A stretch of 64,000 nt of DNA from Lacibacter sp. H407. GTDB taxonomy: Bacteria > Bacteroidota > Bacteroidia > Chitinophagales > Chitinophagaceae. The stretch lies in assembly GCF_037892605.1 (NCBI RefSeq), contig NZ_JBBKTU010000001.1, forward strand, positions 1,426,001 to 1,490,000. Reading direction: 5' to 3'. Position numbers and translations under genes: made by a program. Shown piece after piece: positions 21,146 through 27,770 of this stretch; position 1 is the first letter of the stretch, and the number at the start of each line of letters is the position of its first letter. Under the pieces are notes generated by a model. That model saw only the letters and a list, made by a program, of their open reading frames with translations. It searched no databases and was not told where the DNA came from.

Positions 21146-21982
21146 ATGTCTACTGTAACAATAAGTGCACAGGATATTAATAAACTCCGCCAGGCTACTG
21201 GTGCGGGTATGATGGATTGCCGTAAAGCATTAACTGAAACAAACGGCGATTTTGAAGCAGCGATCGATTGGTTGCGTAAACAAGGACAGAAAGTTGCTGC
21301 TAAACGTAGCGACCGTGAAGCGAAAGAAGGTGTGGTAATTGCACAAACAAGTGCGGATGGTACAACAGGGTTTGTTGTTTGCATTAGTTGCGAAACAGAC
21401 TTTGTAAGTAAGAATGCTGATTTTGTTGCATTTGCACAATCTATTGCAGATGCAGCTGTAGCAAATAACGTAAAGAGTGTTGACGAATTGAATGAAGTGG
21501 TTGTGAACGGTGCGAAAGTAGCCGACCTTATTAATGATAAGTTGGCTTCTATTGGCGAGAAAATCGGTATCAGCAAATTTGAACGTGTAGAAGCTCCTTA
21601 TGTTGCTTCTTACATTCACGGTGCAAACCGCATGGGTGTATTGGTTGGCTTAAGCAAGGAAGCAGCAGATGCCGGCAAAGATGTAGCGATGCAGATCGCT
21701 GCTATGAATCCTGTTGCTGTTGATCCTGAAAGTGTACCTGCCGATGTGGTTACACGTGAAAGAGATATCATTGTTGATTTGATGAAGCAGGATCCGAAGA
21801 TGGCAGGTAAGCCCGATGAAATGATTGCCAAAATTGCTGAAGGAAAAATGAATGCCTTCTTCAAAGAGCAAACATTGCTGGCACAGGCTTTCGTGAAAGA
21901 TGCATCGAAGAGTGTAGGTGATTACCTGAAAAGTGCAGGTGATGTAAAGGTGACTGAATTTAAGCGTGTAGCTTTAGGATAA
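21146..21982 (+). CDS. tsf: Translation elongation factor Ts
   Basis: 278 residues, normal for EF-Ts, the guanine nucleotide exchange factor of EF-Tu. The N-terminal UBA-like helix bundle carries LRQATGAGMMDCRKALTE, followed by AIDWLRKQGQKVAAKRSDREAKEG, the core motif CETDFVSKN, and a C-terminal half with MQIAAMNP. It is the last gene of the operon and is closed by a terminator 23 bp after the stop. Confidence 0.97.
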   Translation: MSTVTISAQDINKLRQATGAGMMDCRKALTETNGDFEAAIDWLRKQGQKVAAKRSDREAKEGVVIAQTSADGTTGFVVCISCETDFVSKNADFVAFAQSIADAAVANNVKSVDELNEVVVNGAKVADLINDKLASIGEKIGISKFERVEAPYVASYIHGANRMGVLVGLSKEAADAGKDVAMQIAAMNPVAVDPESVPADVVTRERDIIVDLMKQDPKMAGKPDEMIAKIAEGKMNAFFKEQTLLAQAFVKDASKSVGDYLKSAGDVKVTEFKRVALG

Positions 21983-22087: not shown

Positions 22088-23569
22088 ATGCGCTATCATG
22101 TGCAGGTACTTTTTTTTATTGTCTGTCTACTGAACGTAAGTAGAACATCAGCACAAATTCCAATGAATGGGTTGGGTCTTTGGCTAAAAACAGGATCGTC
22201 GGTTAGAACAGATGGCTCAAAGGTTCTTGTATGGGCCGATGAAAGCGGAAATCATCACGATGCATTTGTAGTTGGCGAAAGCAAACCAATTCTTGTTCCG
22301 AATGAACTAAATGGCTTTCCAGTTATTCGGTTCAATGGCAAGGATAATAATATGCAAACTGTTCCGTTTGTCACGTTCGAAAACAAGCGAGGTACGCTTC
22401 TCATTGTTTTCAGATTAAATGGCCCAAGTTTTACATCAGGCGGAGGCGTCAGTTCTCTGGTTTCAACATATCTGGGAAATGGAATTACCTGGCAGTTATG
22501 TGCGAGCCAGTATGTTTATATTTATTATGATGGAGTTGGCTCGGAAGGAATGCCGCTTGCTACAGTTGCAATGAAACAATGGGAAGTTGGGTCGTTAATG
22601 CGTACCAACGATTCAAGCATTACAATTTACAGACGAGGGGATCCGAAAATAAAAGTTCCGATCACCAATAATCAACCGGATACCAATCCGGTAAAAATTG
22701 GCTCCAATGGTCGACTTGAAGTATTGAATGGTGATATTGCAGAGATCATCCTGTATAACAGAGCGCTTGATCAAGAAGAGTTTGCAGCAGTAAATGAATA
22801 CCTCGCAACAAAGTATCAGATCAAACAGCCCGCACCTCCATTTACAGAAACTGTATGGTTCTATATTTTAATTGCATTTATTATACTGGCAGTATCAATC
22901 GCAATTACAAAATATCTTTCTCAACGAAAGTTGAAACATAAACTCAATGAACTGAAGAAACAGGCACAACTTGATAAAGAACGTTTGCGTATTTCGAGAG
23001 AGATGCACGACGATATTGGAGCCGGCTTAACGCAGATTATTTTGATGAGTGAATCTGCCAAGAGTAAATCAGCAGGAAACGGCGATAAAGAACTGGAAGG
23101 TATTGCAGATGCCAGCAGAAAATTGGTAAGCAATATGAGTGAGATCATCTGGAGCCTTCATCCCGAAAACAAAACATTGGATCAGCTATTTGCTTATTTG
23201 CGTGAGCAGATGCACAAGCTGCTAGAATATAGCGGCATCGAATACAGCATTCATTTTCCCGGGGATGCAGATCATATTTTTCTCAACAATGAACAACGAC
23301 GCAATCTGTTGTTGGTAGTAAAAGAAATTGTTCATAATGCAGTTAAGTATAGTGGCGCAAAGCAAGTATCTGTTAATGCATCATTGCGGGAGCAGGTTCT
23401 GCATTTCGAAATAAATGACAATGGAACCGGCTTTGACACCGAAAAGAAATACAGCGGTAACGGGTTAAAAAATATTCATGCACGAATAAGTGAATTACAA
23501 GGCAGCTTGAATGTAGAATCAAACGGGGATAGCGGAACGAAGTATGTATTTACGATTCCCGTTGGATAA
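22088..23569 (+). CDS. Sensor histidine kinase with extracellular LamG-like domain
   Basis: 493 residues: signal peptide (1-22, RTSAQ); a LamG/concanavalin-like domain (about 25-245, GLWLKTGSSV, VWADESGNHHDAF, IAEIILYNRAL); one transmembrane helix (about 257-277); a coiled linker; a HisKA_3 dimerisation helix with phospho-acceptor His307 in ISREMHDDIGAGL; and a HATPase domain (N-box VKEIVHNAVKYSGA, G-box NDNGTGFDTEK, GNGLKNI). It probably senses an extracellular ligand, perhaps a glycan given the lectin-like fold (inference), and phosphorylates the NarL-type regulator encoded 52 bp downstream. It is preceded by the tsf terminator, so it starts its own transcript. Confidence 0.92.
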   Translation: MRYHVQVLFFIVCLLNVSRTSAQIPMNGLGLWLKTGSSVRTDGSKVLVWADESGNHHDAFVVGESKPILVPNELNGFPVIRFNGKDNNMQTVPFVTFENKRGTLLIVFRLNGPSFTSGGGVSSLVSTYLGNGITWQLCASQYVYIYYDGVGSEGMPLATVAMKQWEVGSLMRTNDSSITIYRRGDPKIKVPITNNQPDTNPVKIGSNGRLEVLNGDIAEIILYNRALDQEEFAAVNEYLATKYQIKQPAPPFTETVWFYILIAFIILAVSIAITKYLSQRKLKHKLNELKKQAQLDKERLRISREMHDDIGAGLTQIILMSESAKSKSAGNGDKELEGIADASRKLVSNMSEIIWSLHPENKTLDQLFAYLREQMHKLLEYSGIEYSIHFPGDADHIFLNNEQRRNLLLVVKEIVHNAVKYSGAKQVSVNASLREQVLHFEINDNGTGFDTEKKYSGNGLKNIHARISELQGSLNVESNGDSGTKYVFTIPVG

Positions 23570-23570
23570 T

Positions 23571-23588
23571 TACTACTAAACCCACATT
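23571..23588 (+). promoter_or_regulatory. TACTACTA-N4-CACATT motif, copy 1 (before the regulator gene)
   Basis: Lies between the kinase stop and the regulator GTG. It is identical to the two downstream copies except in the 4-nt spacer (AACC here, TTCT there). The TACTACT half fits the NarL heptamer TACYNMT. A degenerate -7-like box (AATCTTTA, 23610-23617) starts 39 bp from the motif start. Confidence 0.5.
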
Positions 23589-23621
23589 GATAACATAATC
23601 GAATACATCAATCTTTAAAAC

Positions 23622-24251
23622 GTGAAAATAAGTTCCATTGCAATTACGGAAGATGATGAAAAGGTGAGACACTACCTTGCTGAGCAAATTCAATTGCAAA
23701 TTGATGTAGAGGAGTTGCGGCTTTTTGCAGATGCAGAAACGGCCTTGAAAGAACTATCTTCTCATCCCGTTGATATTGCATTGTTTGATGTGAACCTTCC
23801 AGGAATGAGCGGCATTGATTGCATTCAACGTTTGAAAATGCTGCACCCCCGCATGCAAATGATGGTGCTGACTGTGTATGATAATACAGATACAATTTTT
23901 CAGGCATTGAAAGCAGGCGCAACAAGTTATTTATTAAAAAGTACGCCACCTGAAAAAGTAGTAGAAGCTATTGAAGATGTTTTTAACGGTGGTTCACCCA
24001 TTAGCAGCCAGATCGCTCGTAAAGTAATCGAAGCGTTTGCAGTAAGAGAAAAAACGAATGACTATTTCCAGGAACTGAGCAGGCGGGAGCAGGAAATACT
24101 GGAACAGCTAAGCAAAGGCTATCGCTACAAAGAAATTGCCGATCAGCTATTCCTGAGTATTGAAACAGTGCGTACTCATATACGTAATATTTATGAAAAG
24201 CTCCAGGTGAACTCAAGAGTGGAGGCACTGAAAAAGACGGGATTGCTGTAA
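23622..24251 (+). CDS. NarL/LuxR-type response regulator
   Basis: 209 residues, GTG start. The receiver domain (1-120) has acidic pocket Asp11/Asp12 and phospho-acceptor Asp56 in ALFDVNLPGMSG, plus Lys in LLKSTPPEK. The C-terminal LuxR/GerE helix-turn-helix (about 145-209) reads LSRREQEILEQLSKGYRYKEIADQL then TVRTHIRNIYEKL. It is the cognate partner of the kinase just upstream. The repeated TACTACTA-N4-CACATT motif before this gene and before the next two transcription units is a good candidate for its binding site, implying autoregulation. Confidence 0.93.
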   Translation: MKISSIAITEDDEKVRHYLAEQIQLQIDVEELRLFADAETALKELSSHPVDIALFDVNLPGMSGIDCIQRLKMLHPRMQMMVLTVYDNTDTIFQALKAGATSYLLKSTPPEKVVEAIEDVFNGGSPISSQIARKVIEAFAVREKTNDYFQELSRREQEILEQLSKGYRYKEIADQLFLSIETVRTHIRNIYEKLQVNSRVEALKKTGLL

Positions 24252-24269
24252 TACTACTATTCTCACATT
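24252..24269 (+). promoter_or_regulatory. TACTACTA-N4-CACATT motif, copy 2
   Basis: It begins inside the stretch directly after the regulator stop codon and 104 bp before the next gene. With flanks, 24246-24272 matches 25495-25521 at 26 of 27 bases. A TATTTTCA box (24291-24298) starts exactly 39 bp from the motif start. Confidence 0.6.
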
Positions 24270-24373
24270 TTTTCTGATAAAGCATTATTCTATTTTCATT
24301 TTGTAGTTTATTAATAAGCATTCAAAATTTTCAGTTTTGTAATGTTTATTCTTAAAACATCAAATATTTTTTT

Positions 24374-25363
24374 ATGAATGAAAGAATAATTTTCGCATTT
24401 GCCGCTTTGCTTTTTTTTATCATGCTAGGTTCCGTCAGCAGCTATGCGCAGGGTTATATCAGTCCCTTTAAATATGAGAACGGAACTTTTAAGAATAAAA
24501 CTTCTGATGAGATAAGAAGGGAATCGGCCCAGGCGTCCACGGGTTCAGTAAATACTCCCCGTAAATTTGTCAAACCAAGAAAAGGGCCGAATAGTTTGGG
24601 TGAGATTTGGATAGATGGTTATTGCCGTTACAGGCCACCGGCTTCTTATAACAAATCGAGATACAACGAAGCTGTTTCAGAAAATGAATATAACAGGGCA
24701 ACATTCCCGCATGATACCATTATAACAGCCGATGATTTTAGCGGAAATGGTACTATACCTTGGGCGGCCAATTTATTTAGTCAGTCCGAGGAGGAAAAGT
24801 GCAAACAACTGCAGCAAAGAATGACGGCTGCCTTAAACGACGGGCTTCCCTTCCCTATGTATGATTCATTGATGAAACTAAGCTGGTATAACATTGCAAA
24901 CGAACGGGGGTATAAAAAGGGCCGTGAATATGAATTTAGCCGTTCAATAAGTTTCTGGGTAAAACGAAAATCGGGCCCTGATAAAATGTATATCAAACTC
25001 ACCACGGAGTTTCCATATACAAACGGAGAGGATTATACCAATTTCGAAATAAACGATAACGGCCAATTTAAAATCGGTGCACGATGTAATAACTGTAAAG
25101 ACACTTACGACGAATTAAAATCGGGTAAAACCAAAGCATGGAAGGAAGGTGACTGGAATGAAATCACCGTAAAGAAAGATGAGTTCAACACAGTTAGTTT
25201 TTTTATTAATGCAGAAAAGCTTTTCCAGTATCAAATTCCTGATATTCCAATAAGCATACGTTTTGCCCAATTCTCTTTAAAAATGCCATCCAATTGGGAG
25301 AAAGAGAAATTGATGTATCATATTGGCCAGGTTACCTCTATCAGCTACCCAAAAATGCAATAA
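24374..25363 (+). CDS. Secreted protein of unknown function, ConA-like C-terminal domain
   Basis: 329 residues with a signal peptide (about 1-25, ending SYAQ). I do not recognise a named family. Residues 30-90 are basic and Ser/Pro-rich, with PRKFVKPRKGPNSLGEIWIDGYCRY. The C-terminal half looks like a jelly-roll/concanavalin-like fold: RSISFWVKRKSGPDKMYIKL, FEINDNGQFKIGARC, GDWNEITVKKDEFNTVSFFINAEK. Two cysteines (CNNC) sit in the predicted fold. The gene follows the LamG-sensor two-component pair and carries the shared operator-like motif upstream, so it is probably a target of that system. A binding or glycan-related role is a guess. Confidence 0.75.
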   Translation: MNERIIFAFAALLFFIMLGSVSSYAQGYISPFKYENGTFKNKTSDEIRRESAQASTGSVNTPRKFVKPRKGPNSLGEIWIDGYCRYRPPASYNKSRYNEAVSENEYNRATFPHDTIITADDFSGNGTIPWAANLFSQSEEEKCKQLQQRMTAALNDGLPFPMYDSLMKLSWYNIANERGYKKGREYEFSRSISFWVKRKSGPDKMYIKLTTEFPYTNGEDYTNFEINDNGQFKIGARCNNCKDTYDELKSGKTKAWKEGDWNEITVKKDEFNTVSFFINAEKLFQYQIPDIPISIRFAQFSLKMPSNWEKEKLMYHIGQVTSISYPKMQ

Positions 25364-25500
25364 GTTATTTAGAATGATTTTGTGAAGAATAATTGCATTT
25401 AGTTCATCCTTTGCTTACTTAACCTATCAACATAAAACGATTCAAGATATTCGCAGGGTGAATTCAAGATTACTGTCACTAAAAAAATAGATTTCTGTAC

Positions 25501-25518
25501 TACTACTATTCTCACATT
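25501..25518 (+). promoter_or_regulatory. TACTACTA-N4-CACATT motif, copy 3
   Basis: 50 bp before the ATG at 25569. A -7-like box TAGTTTAG (25540-25547, five of six consensus bases) starts 39 bp from the motif start, placing the motif centre near -44, a position typical of activators contacting RNA polymerase. The rest of the 25364-25568 spacer shows nothing else I can name. Confidence 0.6.
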
Positions 25519-25568
25519 TTTAAAACCTGTAATTGGTTTTAGTTTAGTCTTCACCAAAATCACACAGT

Positions 25569-27182
25569 ATGAAAAGGATAGTTATTGCCGTTCTGGCACT
25601 GACGACGTATAGTTGTCTTTCAGCACAAACAAAAGAAACCAGCCAGGAACTTTCAAAGGCTGCAAAAAAAGGGATGTTGGTCGATGCTGTTTTTGCAGAC
25701 GACGGTAATATCAAGCTCACTTATAAAATGAAGGTTGATAAGAAAAGCGATCAGATAGCGTATGAAGATTATGTGTTTGATAAAAGTCTTGGTTATGTTG
25801 GCATTCAACCAACGAAAGAAAACAAGAAAACAAATCCTGATAAAAAAATGACCTCTGTTTCTGCTTTTGTTGGAGGGTCAAACTCCTTCAATGTGTTAAG
25901 CATGAATCTTACACTTCAGCAGCAGGTGTGGGAAGTTAACTGGAATTACGATCGCCAAACCTATCAATTTGGAAAAAGGTTATCAAAAGAAACTGTAAAG
26001 CCAAAGAATAACGACAGCAAGTATAAAGGCTTTGCTTCTTATGATAATGACGATGATGGAAGTGTGTTGGTGCTGGCAAGCTATGATAAAGGGAAGGATG
26101 ATGATGATCAGTTTGTTTACCTGCATATCAGTAATGATCTGAATTTGAAAGAAACAAAGGTGCCACTCAATGGAAATTATTCACTGGTGTATTGCGGCAA
26201 GTTGCAATCAGGAAATGTGTTCGCAGTATTTGCACCAAATAAAGGAGCAGCAGATACAAAAAAATATACTATTACAGAATTTACCATCAAAGGTGAACTG
26301 GTTAGCAGCAATGAATTCAATGCGCCTTCTCCCAATACACTGATCATGGACTATACTGAAGTGAACGGCGATCTTTTCTTTGTTGCAGGTTCCGATAAAA
26401 GTAATGATGCCTATAGCGAAGTCTTTACCAGTTATGCGCCGATTGACAATCCGGGTTATTCAACCGGCGCCAACAAGCAAATGGATAAGTATGAAAAAAA
26501 GGTGATGGGTCATGAGTTTGATAATTTTCATTTACTACGTATTTCAAAAGGACAATTGCTGTTGGCAACTACTACGCCGGTGAAAGATTTCAAAAAAAAA
26601 GTACTAACACCTCCTTCGCAAAAGAAAAGCCATCCTTATGAGGGGAAGAAAATGGTGGTACAGAATATTGTTATAACACCTGCCGGTGATTATCTGGTTG
26701 CCGGTCAATTGAATGACAAAAAAATTACGAATAAAGGCAGTTCGTATAGCTATCAGTACTACGATTATGTTTGTCTTCATTTTGATAAGAACGGAACATT
26801 AAAGGCACAGTATGCAGTAGAAAAAGAATTTGATGATAGTAAAAGTGAATCGTATCCAGGTGCTCAAAGCTTTGTTCTTAGTGCCGACGGCAGTACTGCT
26901 TACTGGGAGTTGATGGAAATTAAAGTAGTGAAGTTTTACGAGTCAATTGCAGATGCATATAATGGAAGTGCTTCTTATGCGCCACATTATTTTCCACGTA
27001 TTGCTAAGATCAATCTTTCAGCAAGCACTGTTGGAGATTTTACAGGGTTAGGTGAAAAAGGAAAGTTTCTCGTTTATCGATATCACACAAGTTTAACCGA
27101 CGAGAAAACAAATACACGATATTATATTGGCCATGATGATGATTATGAAAAAATATGGCTGGGAAAATTTTCTTTTGAATAA
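25569..27182 (+). CDS. Secreted protein of unknown function, beta-propeller-like
   Basis: 537 residues with a signal peptide (MKRIVIAVLALTTYSCLSAQ); a Cys at 16 is followed by LSAQ, so it is more likely cleaved by signal peptidase I than a lipoprotein. The mature chain has repeated strands separated by Asp/Lys-rich turns (SYDNDDDGSVLVLASYDKGKDDDD, GDYLVAGQLND, HDDDYEKIWLGKFSFE), compatible with a beta-propeller. No catalytic motif is visible and no sorting domain is attached. It is the second secreted gene with the TACTACTA motif, and a terminator follows. Confidence 0.75.
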   Translation: MKRIVIAVLALTTYSCLSAQTKETSQELSKAAKKGMLVDAVFADDGNIKLTYKMKVDKKSDQIAYEDYVFDKSLGYVGIQPTKENKKTNPDKKMTSVSAFVGGSNSFNVLSMNLTLQQQVWEVNWNYDRQTYQFGKRLSKETVKPKNNDSKYKGFASYDNDDDGSVLVLASYDKGKDDDDQFVYLHISNDLNLKETKVPLNGNYSLVYCGKLQSGNVFAVFAPNKGAADTKKYTITEFTIKGELVSSNEFNAPSPNTLIMDYTEVNGDLFFVAGSDKSNDAYSEVFTSYAPIDNPGYSTGANKQMDKYEKKVMGHEFDNFHLLRISKGQLLLATTTPVKDFKKKVLTPPSQKKSHPYEGKKMVVQNIVITPAGDYLVAGQLNDKKITNKGSSYSYQYYDYVCLHFDKNGTLKAQYAVEKEFDDSKSESYPGAQSFVLSADGSTAYWELMEIKVVKFYESIADAYNGSASYAPHYFPRIAKINLSASTVGDFTGLGEKGKFLVYRYHTSLTDEKTNTRYYIGHDDDYEKIWLGKFSFE

Positions 27183-27302: not shown

Positions 27303-27770
27303 ATGGATGAAAAAATAGATTTCCTGAAAAATCAATACATCTTGCTGGTAAAATCAGCCGATACTGCCATTGTACCCCAATGGGGCAAAATGAATTTTCA
27401 GCAAATGGCCGAACATGTGGCTGCGTTCTTTAAAGTATCAACACATAAACTCAAGTTCGATCTTGTTTCCCCACCTGAACATATGCCCAAGCTCAAAGAA
27501 TTTTTAATGAGCGATAAACAGTTCAGAGAAAACACAAAAGCTCCCGCAAGTATTATTGGTGAAGAACCCTTTCCTGTTCATTATGCTTCACCCGAGGAAG
27601 CTGTTGCCAAACTGGAAAAAGAAGTAAACCATTTCTTTCATTTTTATGAAACGAACCCAGCAGCCACAGCTGTGCATCCTGTATTTGGCGAATTGAACTT
27701 TGAAGAATGGGTGCGGCTGCACTACAAACATGTTACCCATCACCTGCGTCAGTTTGGTTTGATGCGTTAA
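27303..27770 (+). CDS. DUF1569 (DinB-like) protein
   Basis: 155 residues with the four-helix DinB/YfiT-like layout. Candidate metal-binding histidines are His38 (MAEHVAAF) and the C-terminal HYKHVTHHLRQFG cluster (140-147). Members are thought to be metal-dependent, possibly thiol-transferase-like, but this one is not characterised. It stands directly before paaZ (68 bp, no terminator), so the two may be co-transcribed; a role in phenylacetate use is only positional. Confidence 0.8.
   Translation: MDEKIDFLKNQYILLVKSADTAIVPQWGKMNFQQMAEHVAAFFKVSTHKLKFDLVSPPEHMPKLKEFLMSDKQFRENTKAPASIIGEEPFPVHYASPEEAVAKLEKEVNHFFHFYETNPAATAVHPVFGELNFEEWVRLHYKHVTHHLRQFGLMR

Follow-up and report, generated by a model that had tools for sequence, protein, structure and literature searches.

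The window, a stretch of 64,000 nucleotides from Lacibacter sp. H407, contains a two-component locus with the gene order sensor kinase, copy 1 of a repeated element, response regulator, copy 2, a 329-aa protein, copy 3 and a 537-aa protein. A pattern search of the window placed the three copies where the initial sequence-only reading had put them, ahead of the regulator gene and of two genes for secreted proteins. The ORFs behind copies 2 and 3 have signal-peptide-like starts. The features of the locus are as follows.

22088-23569, + strand: sensor histidine kinase, 493 aa, with a signal-peptide-like start, a weakly LamG-like sensor, HisKA_3 and HATPase_c
23571-23588, + strand: putative operator copy 1, preceding the response regulator; TACTACT, N2, second half ACCCACA, then TT of the -33 region; counterparts in orthologs
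23610-23617, + strand: -7-like box AATCTTTA, 39 bp from the start of operator copy 1, weak when taken singly
23622-24251, + strand: NarL/VraR-type response regulator, 209 aa, GTG start, recognition helix ETVRTHIRNIYEKL
24252-24269, + strand: putative operator copy 2, preceding the 329-aa gene, its first base directly after the regulator stop codon
24291-24298, + strand: -7-like box TATTTTCA, 39 bp from the start of operator copy 2, a weak match
24374-25363, + strand: target 1, 329-aa protein with a signal-peptide-like start, second half weakly LamG-like
25457-25500, + strand: decayed second copy of the regulator gene's 3′ end (24206-24251), running into operator copy 3
25501-25518, + strand: putative operator copy 3, preceding the 537-aa gene, all 18 bases identical to copy 2
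25540-25547, + strand: -7-like box TAGTTTAG, 39 bp from the start of operator copy 3
25569-27182, + strand: target 2, 537-aa protein with a signal-peptide-like start and a beta-propeller-like model

The kinase matched HisKA_3 (2.1e-10) and HATPase_c (4.2e-11) in Pfam and adjoins a regulator that matched Response_reg (2.6e-22) and GerE (3.1e-19), the composition of a two-component pair of the NarL/FixJ type. The solved structures closest to the regulator were VraR, followed by DesR and NarL. No equivalog of a named NarL-family regulator (NarL, NarP, UhpA and others) was found in NCBIfam, where the best 25 of the 97 families matched all scored far under their cut-offs and the NarL model reached 113.7 of the 250 bits required. 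The sensor part of the kinase resembled Laminin_G_3 at 0.0025, its 18.4 bits falling under the cut-off of 27.6, and all four homologous sensors matched this family at E≤1 (best 8.7e-6). A profile of the sensor found no solved structure, and the sensor model was poor (mean pLDDT 46). The gene directly before the kinase (21146-21982), which we take to be tsf-like, has the same place in the relative G161 (L178), where regulator identity is just 51%. Behind the regulon, at 27303-27770, lies an ordinary 155-aa DinB_2/DUF1569 protein without an operator copy of its own.

Searched over the whole genome, the motif was not scattered. Exact TACTACTA-N4-CACATT, a pattern of 14 defined bases, occurred three times in 4.87 Mb, each time on the + strand and inside these 2 kb, while the reverse strand and a reversed control both gave none. 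A refined pattern built on relatives matched just the three copies in the window at up to one mismatch (0.05 expected; three reached in none of 100 shuffles). With three mismatches allowed, the pattern of the sequence-only reading gave 12 matches there against 6.00 expected, mostly background, and 3 of 100 shuffles gave as many. A loose motif (up to three mismatches, with the box) matched 8 and 9 times per strand in the organism's own genome against 22 and 26 for the control; as these counts lie below the control, no additional members are claimed in this genome. As noted earlier, copies 2 and 3 with their flanks are identical at 26 of 27 bases (24246-24272 against 25495-25521). The half-site TACTACT is present in all three copies, with T or C at position 4 among relatives, and fits the NarL heptamer consensus TACYYMT/TACYNMT. 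The second half in the window is ACCCACA or TCTCACA; no inverted heptamer lies 2 bp from TACTACT, and the sites thus depart from the 7-2-7 arrangement of NarL.

A promoter-like box exactly 39 bp from the motif start had been noted at each copy, and this spacing held at all three. TAnnTTTG, the -7 element of the Bacteroidota primary sigma factor, was scored at every offset from 20 to 71 after each of 57 related sites in 28 loci. A single peak was found at offset 39, with a mean of 4.46 of 6; the runner-up was the adjacent offset 38 (2.72), and the mean over offsets 20-71 was 1.81 (sd 0.47). The element therefore stands at a fixed distance from the predicted operator. The -33 region (consensus TTTG) was T-rich at offsets 16-19 in the CACATT group and ATTG-like in the other groups, and outside the CACATT group the -7 box peaked at offset 38-39. 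In two Flavobacterium species the -7 box lies at -12 to -5, according to the available text of PMC9723704 and PMC6847099. With the same geometry, transcription would start at offset 51, giving predicted starts at 23622, 24303 and 25552, and the midpoint of a 7-2-7 site would fall at about -43.5.

Regulators of this type were matched at E≤1e-45 in 203 of 394 genomes of the family, 16 of which (the window's own included) had a regulator of at least 69% identity, the next best being 58%. An element with up to two mismatches was present within 1.5 kb in 23 of the 30 best regulator loci (own included), L125 among the 23 being doubtful, and was absent in seven; the relatives share descent, and these counts are not independent. 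The element takes two places in relatives, one in the gap from kinase to regulator and one behind the regulator, ahead of the gene that follows. The motif is thus present before orthologous regulators and their following genes, as expected of a two-component regulon. The elements are TACTACTTAAATCACATC and TACTACTTTTATCACATT in G032, and TACTACTTAAATCACATT and TACTACTTTTTTCACATT in G040; in G024, TACTACTTTTTTCACATT lies upstream of the regulator and TACTACTTCTTTCACATT upstream of a homolog of the 537-aa protein. Putative operators without the 329-aa gene occur in other genera.

Across 28 loci (428,868 bases), most of which were chosen for holding sites, 57 sites were found at up to two mismatches compared to 10 for the reversed pattern. 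Twenty of the 57 precede the regulator, 29 precede another ORF start, none precedes a kinase and eight are unassigned; five of these eight lie in loci missing from the ORF table, and two of those five (L067, L068) precede genes with export-signal-like starts. Signal-peptide-like starts were scored in 28 of 28 targets and in 81 of 228 other ORFs with 140 aa or more, using our own hydrophobicity rule rather than SignalP and a comparison set in which some ORFs are perhaps not genes. The broader pattern TACYACTWNNNYCACATT was found exactly in 15 of the 16 genomes whose regulator is a close ortholog (at least 69%) and in 52 of the 378 others. Of its 87 exact matches, 33 had at least one of 36 regulator places no more than 3.5 kb away, and most of the 54 away from these places are probably due to chance.

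Several loci showed individual peculiarities. In G327 (C29:3818-4318) a regulator match carries one in-frame TGA, with an exact operator right behind it, and is possibly a decaying copy or a sequencing fault. Behind the regulator in locus L105 of G040 (2136-2155), two TACTACT stand as a direct repeat (TACTACTTTTTTACTACTTT), with a normal operator farther on. In L069, L070, L164-L166 and L168-L171 one gene, presumably metF-like, often follows the module and another, presumably an LptB-like ABC ATPase, often precedes it, as judged from N-terminal sequences.

The wider family was represented by 95 distinct regulators from 80 named and 30 fetched loci. TAC[TC]ACT was found nearby, i.e. within 150 bp upstream or 250 bp downstream, in 77 of 79 regulators with the helix THIRN compared to 7 of 79 for a control word; the 80 named regulators were found partly via the peptide HIRNIYEK, which biases helix frequencies towards THIRN. 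Seven of the 95 had no such heptamer nearby. On the tree of the 95 regulators, operator class changed 10 times against a shuffled mean of 34.7, with none of 200 shuffles as low; the predicted operator types track the phylogeny of the regulators. Beyond the CACATT group, second halves were of the GCGTATTG, GGTGATTG and ATGTGATTG types or a palindromic partner, as in TACCACT-TT-AGTAGTA of L212 (Flavobacterium) and TACTACT-AA-AGTAGTA of L215. Near-palindromic partners were seen at distant homologs such as L212, L215, L234 and L243. These TACTACT-N2-AGTAGTA-like palindromes of some distant homologs, together with the NarL/VraR type of the regulator, support the earlier assignment of TACTACT to the NarL heptamer. 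The exact palindrome occurred at 8 places in 7 of 247 genomes of the phylum, and no regulator with this helix lay within 1.5 kb of any of them; at one place (L271) another response-regulator-like ORF lies ~0.8 kb off. Four related regulators with the helix KHIHN (L123, L124, L128, L133) had TACCACT in all six listed sites. This combination is a possible one-step change of the recognition code, in four regulators that form one clade and perhaps reflect a single event, TACCACT being also a minority form with THIRN. No such heptamer was seen at two regulators with RHVHN and two with SHIRN.

The reading best supported by these data, with a probability of roughly 0.8, is that all three copies serve as operators for the response regulator whose gene lies between copies 1 and 2, and that this regulator likely activates its own gene and the two exported-protein genes. 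The two-component regulon proposed from the sequence alone is thus upheld by sites that are not scattered, are conserved at orthologous regulators and keep the 39-bp spacing. Under this model, the membrane kinase would sense a periplasmic signal and phosphorylate the NarL/VraR-type regulator. The regulator would then bind as a dimer. One subunit would contact TACTACT, which does not vary, and its partner the degenerate heptamer NNYCACA that follows after a 2-bp gap. From such a site, centred about 43.5 bp before the predicted start and overlapping the -33 region, the dimer would recruit RNA polymerase by class II activation to three promoters. One of these, internal and driving the regulator gene, would provide positive feedback through a leaderless mRNA, and the other two would serve the exported-protein genes. 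In the accessible portions of PMC7419079, NarL works from a position immediately before the -35 element in the yeaR promoter and from -44.5 in that of ogt; the site position here is much like these, which makes recruitment of RNA polymerase most likely.

Positive autoregulation appears the likeliest mode. Repressor sites are usually freer in position, and the fixed -7 spacing over the 57 sites and the imperfect -33 element fit dependence on an activator better than a scheme in which the regulator binds but represses itself and the exported proteins until the signal relieves it. Repression, which we consider unlikely, would agree with the ability of an operator over the -33 region to block polymerase and with the repression of frdA by NarL from a 7-2-7 site near the start, as given in the available part of PMC4549865. 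Somewhat less probable still is that another transcription factor binds the element and that the two-component genes are mere members of its regulon. Co-occurrence alone cannot name the binder, and many regulators with the same helix have different second halves; however, the site type clusters on the tree of the neighbouring regulator, and the six sites listed at the four KHIHN regulators, one clade, all have TACCACT. A reading without regulation, in which duplication simply left direct repeats on both sides of the 329-aa gene, is very improbable, since the decayed duplicate of the regulator 3′ end in which copy 3 does sit accounts for copy 3 alone and has the operator as its best preserved part, and operators are conserved in genera that have neither the duplication nor the 329-aa gene.

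If the copies are operators of the regulator, as we favor, copy 3 would also record how a gene joined the regulon. Local alignment of 24206-24272 with 25457-25521 spanned 67 columns including the operator (score 65). The 3′-end part alone scored 26, a value reached in none of 500 shuffles, and a shorter part was equalled in 3 of 1000. In G286 the regulator, the operator and a homolog of the 537-aa protein stand in direct succession. The position of copy 3 within the decayed duplicate suggests that the first target, the 329-aa gene, was probably inserted by an event that duplicated the regulator 3′ end together with the operator, a one-step gain for the regulon. Duplication as a general origin of distal operators was rejected, as none of five others in four loci resembled the regulator 3′ end (score reached in 52 to 263 of 500 shuffles). 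The other 13 genomes of the genus all lack the exact motif, indicating that the locus is patchy there and was either gained sideways or often lost.

The predicted start sites set the regulator apart from its targets. Of 20 regulator sites, 17 had the start codon at a distance of 48-52 bp from the beginning of the operator, compared to 0 of 28 target sites, with one doubtful two-mismatch site omitted (L164, 7348) and starts moved to the next Met in L167 and L174. In the window, transcription is predicted to begin at 23622, on the G of the GTG that starts the regulator's reading frame. Among the 79 of 95 regulators that could be scored for operator, box and start codon together, an in-frame start codon was found at predicted -1 to +4 in 57 and at +1 in 33, the one nearest to +1 being chosen where there were several, which favors the leaderless result. 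The regulator mRNA is accordingly predicted from these positions to be leaderless and to arise from an internal promoter. A duller alternative to a leaderless design is that kinase and regulator stay close together and the operator-promoter just fits between them. In one flavobacterium 5.5% of mapped mRNAs are leaderless (PMC9723704), and in another 87% of predicted transcripts have leaders >10 nt (PMC6847099), by the available text of both reports.

The kinases varied in their sensors. In 23 mapped loci with kinase and regulator, a short LamG-like sensor was found in four (the window, G032, G286, G363), 7TMR-DISM in two, TPR in two and a kinase of ~1000 aa in fifteen; three of these fifteen were scanned, and all three contained Reg_prop/Y_Y_Y. 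Judged by domain matches, the sensors (LamG-like, propeller, 7TMR, TPR) are swapped while regulator, operator and layout persist. The operator-linked genes were mutually unrelated and comprised WG-repeat proteins (two scanned), homologs of the 537-aa protein, a protein whose barrel-like match narrowly missed Pfam's cut-off and a lipoprotein of ~240 aa with a GKRTL-like end, recognised by eye. The lipoprotein occurred in ten mapped loci, in some cases second or third in line after the operator. Its members are L166 8930-9679, L169 10745-11470, L170 9833-10564, L171 9908-10645, L172 8909-9637, L173 9229-9942, L174 6608-7381, L175 8055-8786, L179 8682-9557, L181 4520-5293 and L068 2321-3055. No family matched two members searched against Pfam and one against NCBIfam, and one member used as query gave no match in the window's genome. 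In G024 a GKRTL lipoprotein gene lies on a different contig from the regulator with an operator 89 bp upstream, and in G217 a gene with WG-like repeats (by eye), also on a different contig, has one 61 bp upstream. These two sites indicate that operators exist before targets outside the regulator's neighbourhood too. A G024 gene for an SBBP propeller (L066 7882-9807) is not claimed as a target, its site having three mismatches.

Target 1 matched Laminin_G_3 at 2.5e-4 (21.7 bits), under the cut-off; it had no NCBIfam family and no homolog in the 79 relatives searched, its own genome alone matching. Operator-linked homologs of the 537-aa protein were found in G024 (39-40%) and G286 (51%). This protein had no Pfam or NCBIfam family, and among 14 members of its family two had one weak Pfam match each. 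Its model had a mean pLDDT of 78.5, and the 50 Foldseek matches listed were largely propellers, with low query TM-scores of 0.14-0.32. The suggestion that the kinase sensor and one target share a lectin ligand was not supported. Both are weakly LamG-like below Pfam's cut-off, comparison of sensor with target by hhalign gave a probability of 1.3% and hence no relation, and in relatives the same operator goes with kinases of other sensor types.

The system resembles NarX/NarL of Escherichia coli in pairing a NarL-family regulator with a HisKA_3 kinase, in half-sites 2 bp apart as modelled here (7-2-7, in the available text of PMC4549865 and PMC7419079) and in a site that, by the same partial sources, abuts the -35/-33 element with its centre near -44. 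Unlike NarX/NarL, it has a Bacteroidota -33/-7 promoter, YCACA in the second half in place of an inverted heptamer, no nitrate sensor, an operator before the regulator's own gene and targets that look exported. VraSR/LiaSR, of Firmicutes envelope stress, share the kinase class, and VraR was the best solved full-length match to the regulator. This comparison covers the proteins; the LiaS model gave the kinase core 57 of 450 bits, far under the cut-off, the sensors are different and nothing points to a cell-wall signal. The ~1000-aa kinases in fifteen of the 23 mapped loci (three scanned) resemble the 'two component regulator propeller' (Reg_prop/Y_Y_Y) kinases of Bacteroidota, unlike the window kinase with its short LamG-like sensor. 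No description of such an operator in Bacteroidota was recognised among the titles and abstract openings covered, subscription journals being largely outside this scope.

It is possible, at slightly under even odds, that the locus exemplifies a Bacteroidota-wide module in which a single regulator type keeps strictly to TACTACT in one half-site, second halves differ by lineage, sensors are freely exchanged, the regulator mRNA is leaderless on firing and the targets have ordinary leaders. If this is true, the module would form a feedback switch at the levels of both transcription and translation, in a phylum in which leaderless mRNAs are rare, as judged from two Flavobacterium species. The predicted leaderless mRNA of the regulator is a simple and directly testable oddity. 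Regulators of this type are frequent in the family, and a recognisable operator would allow the targets of many uncharacterised sensor kinases to be read from genomes. The sensor swaps constitute a natural experiment in which inputs change and the output is kept, and the regulator-operator pairs may yield a recognition code.
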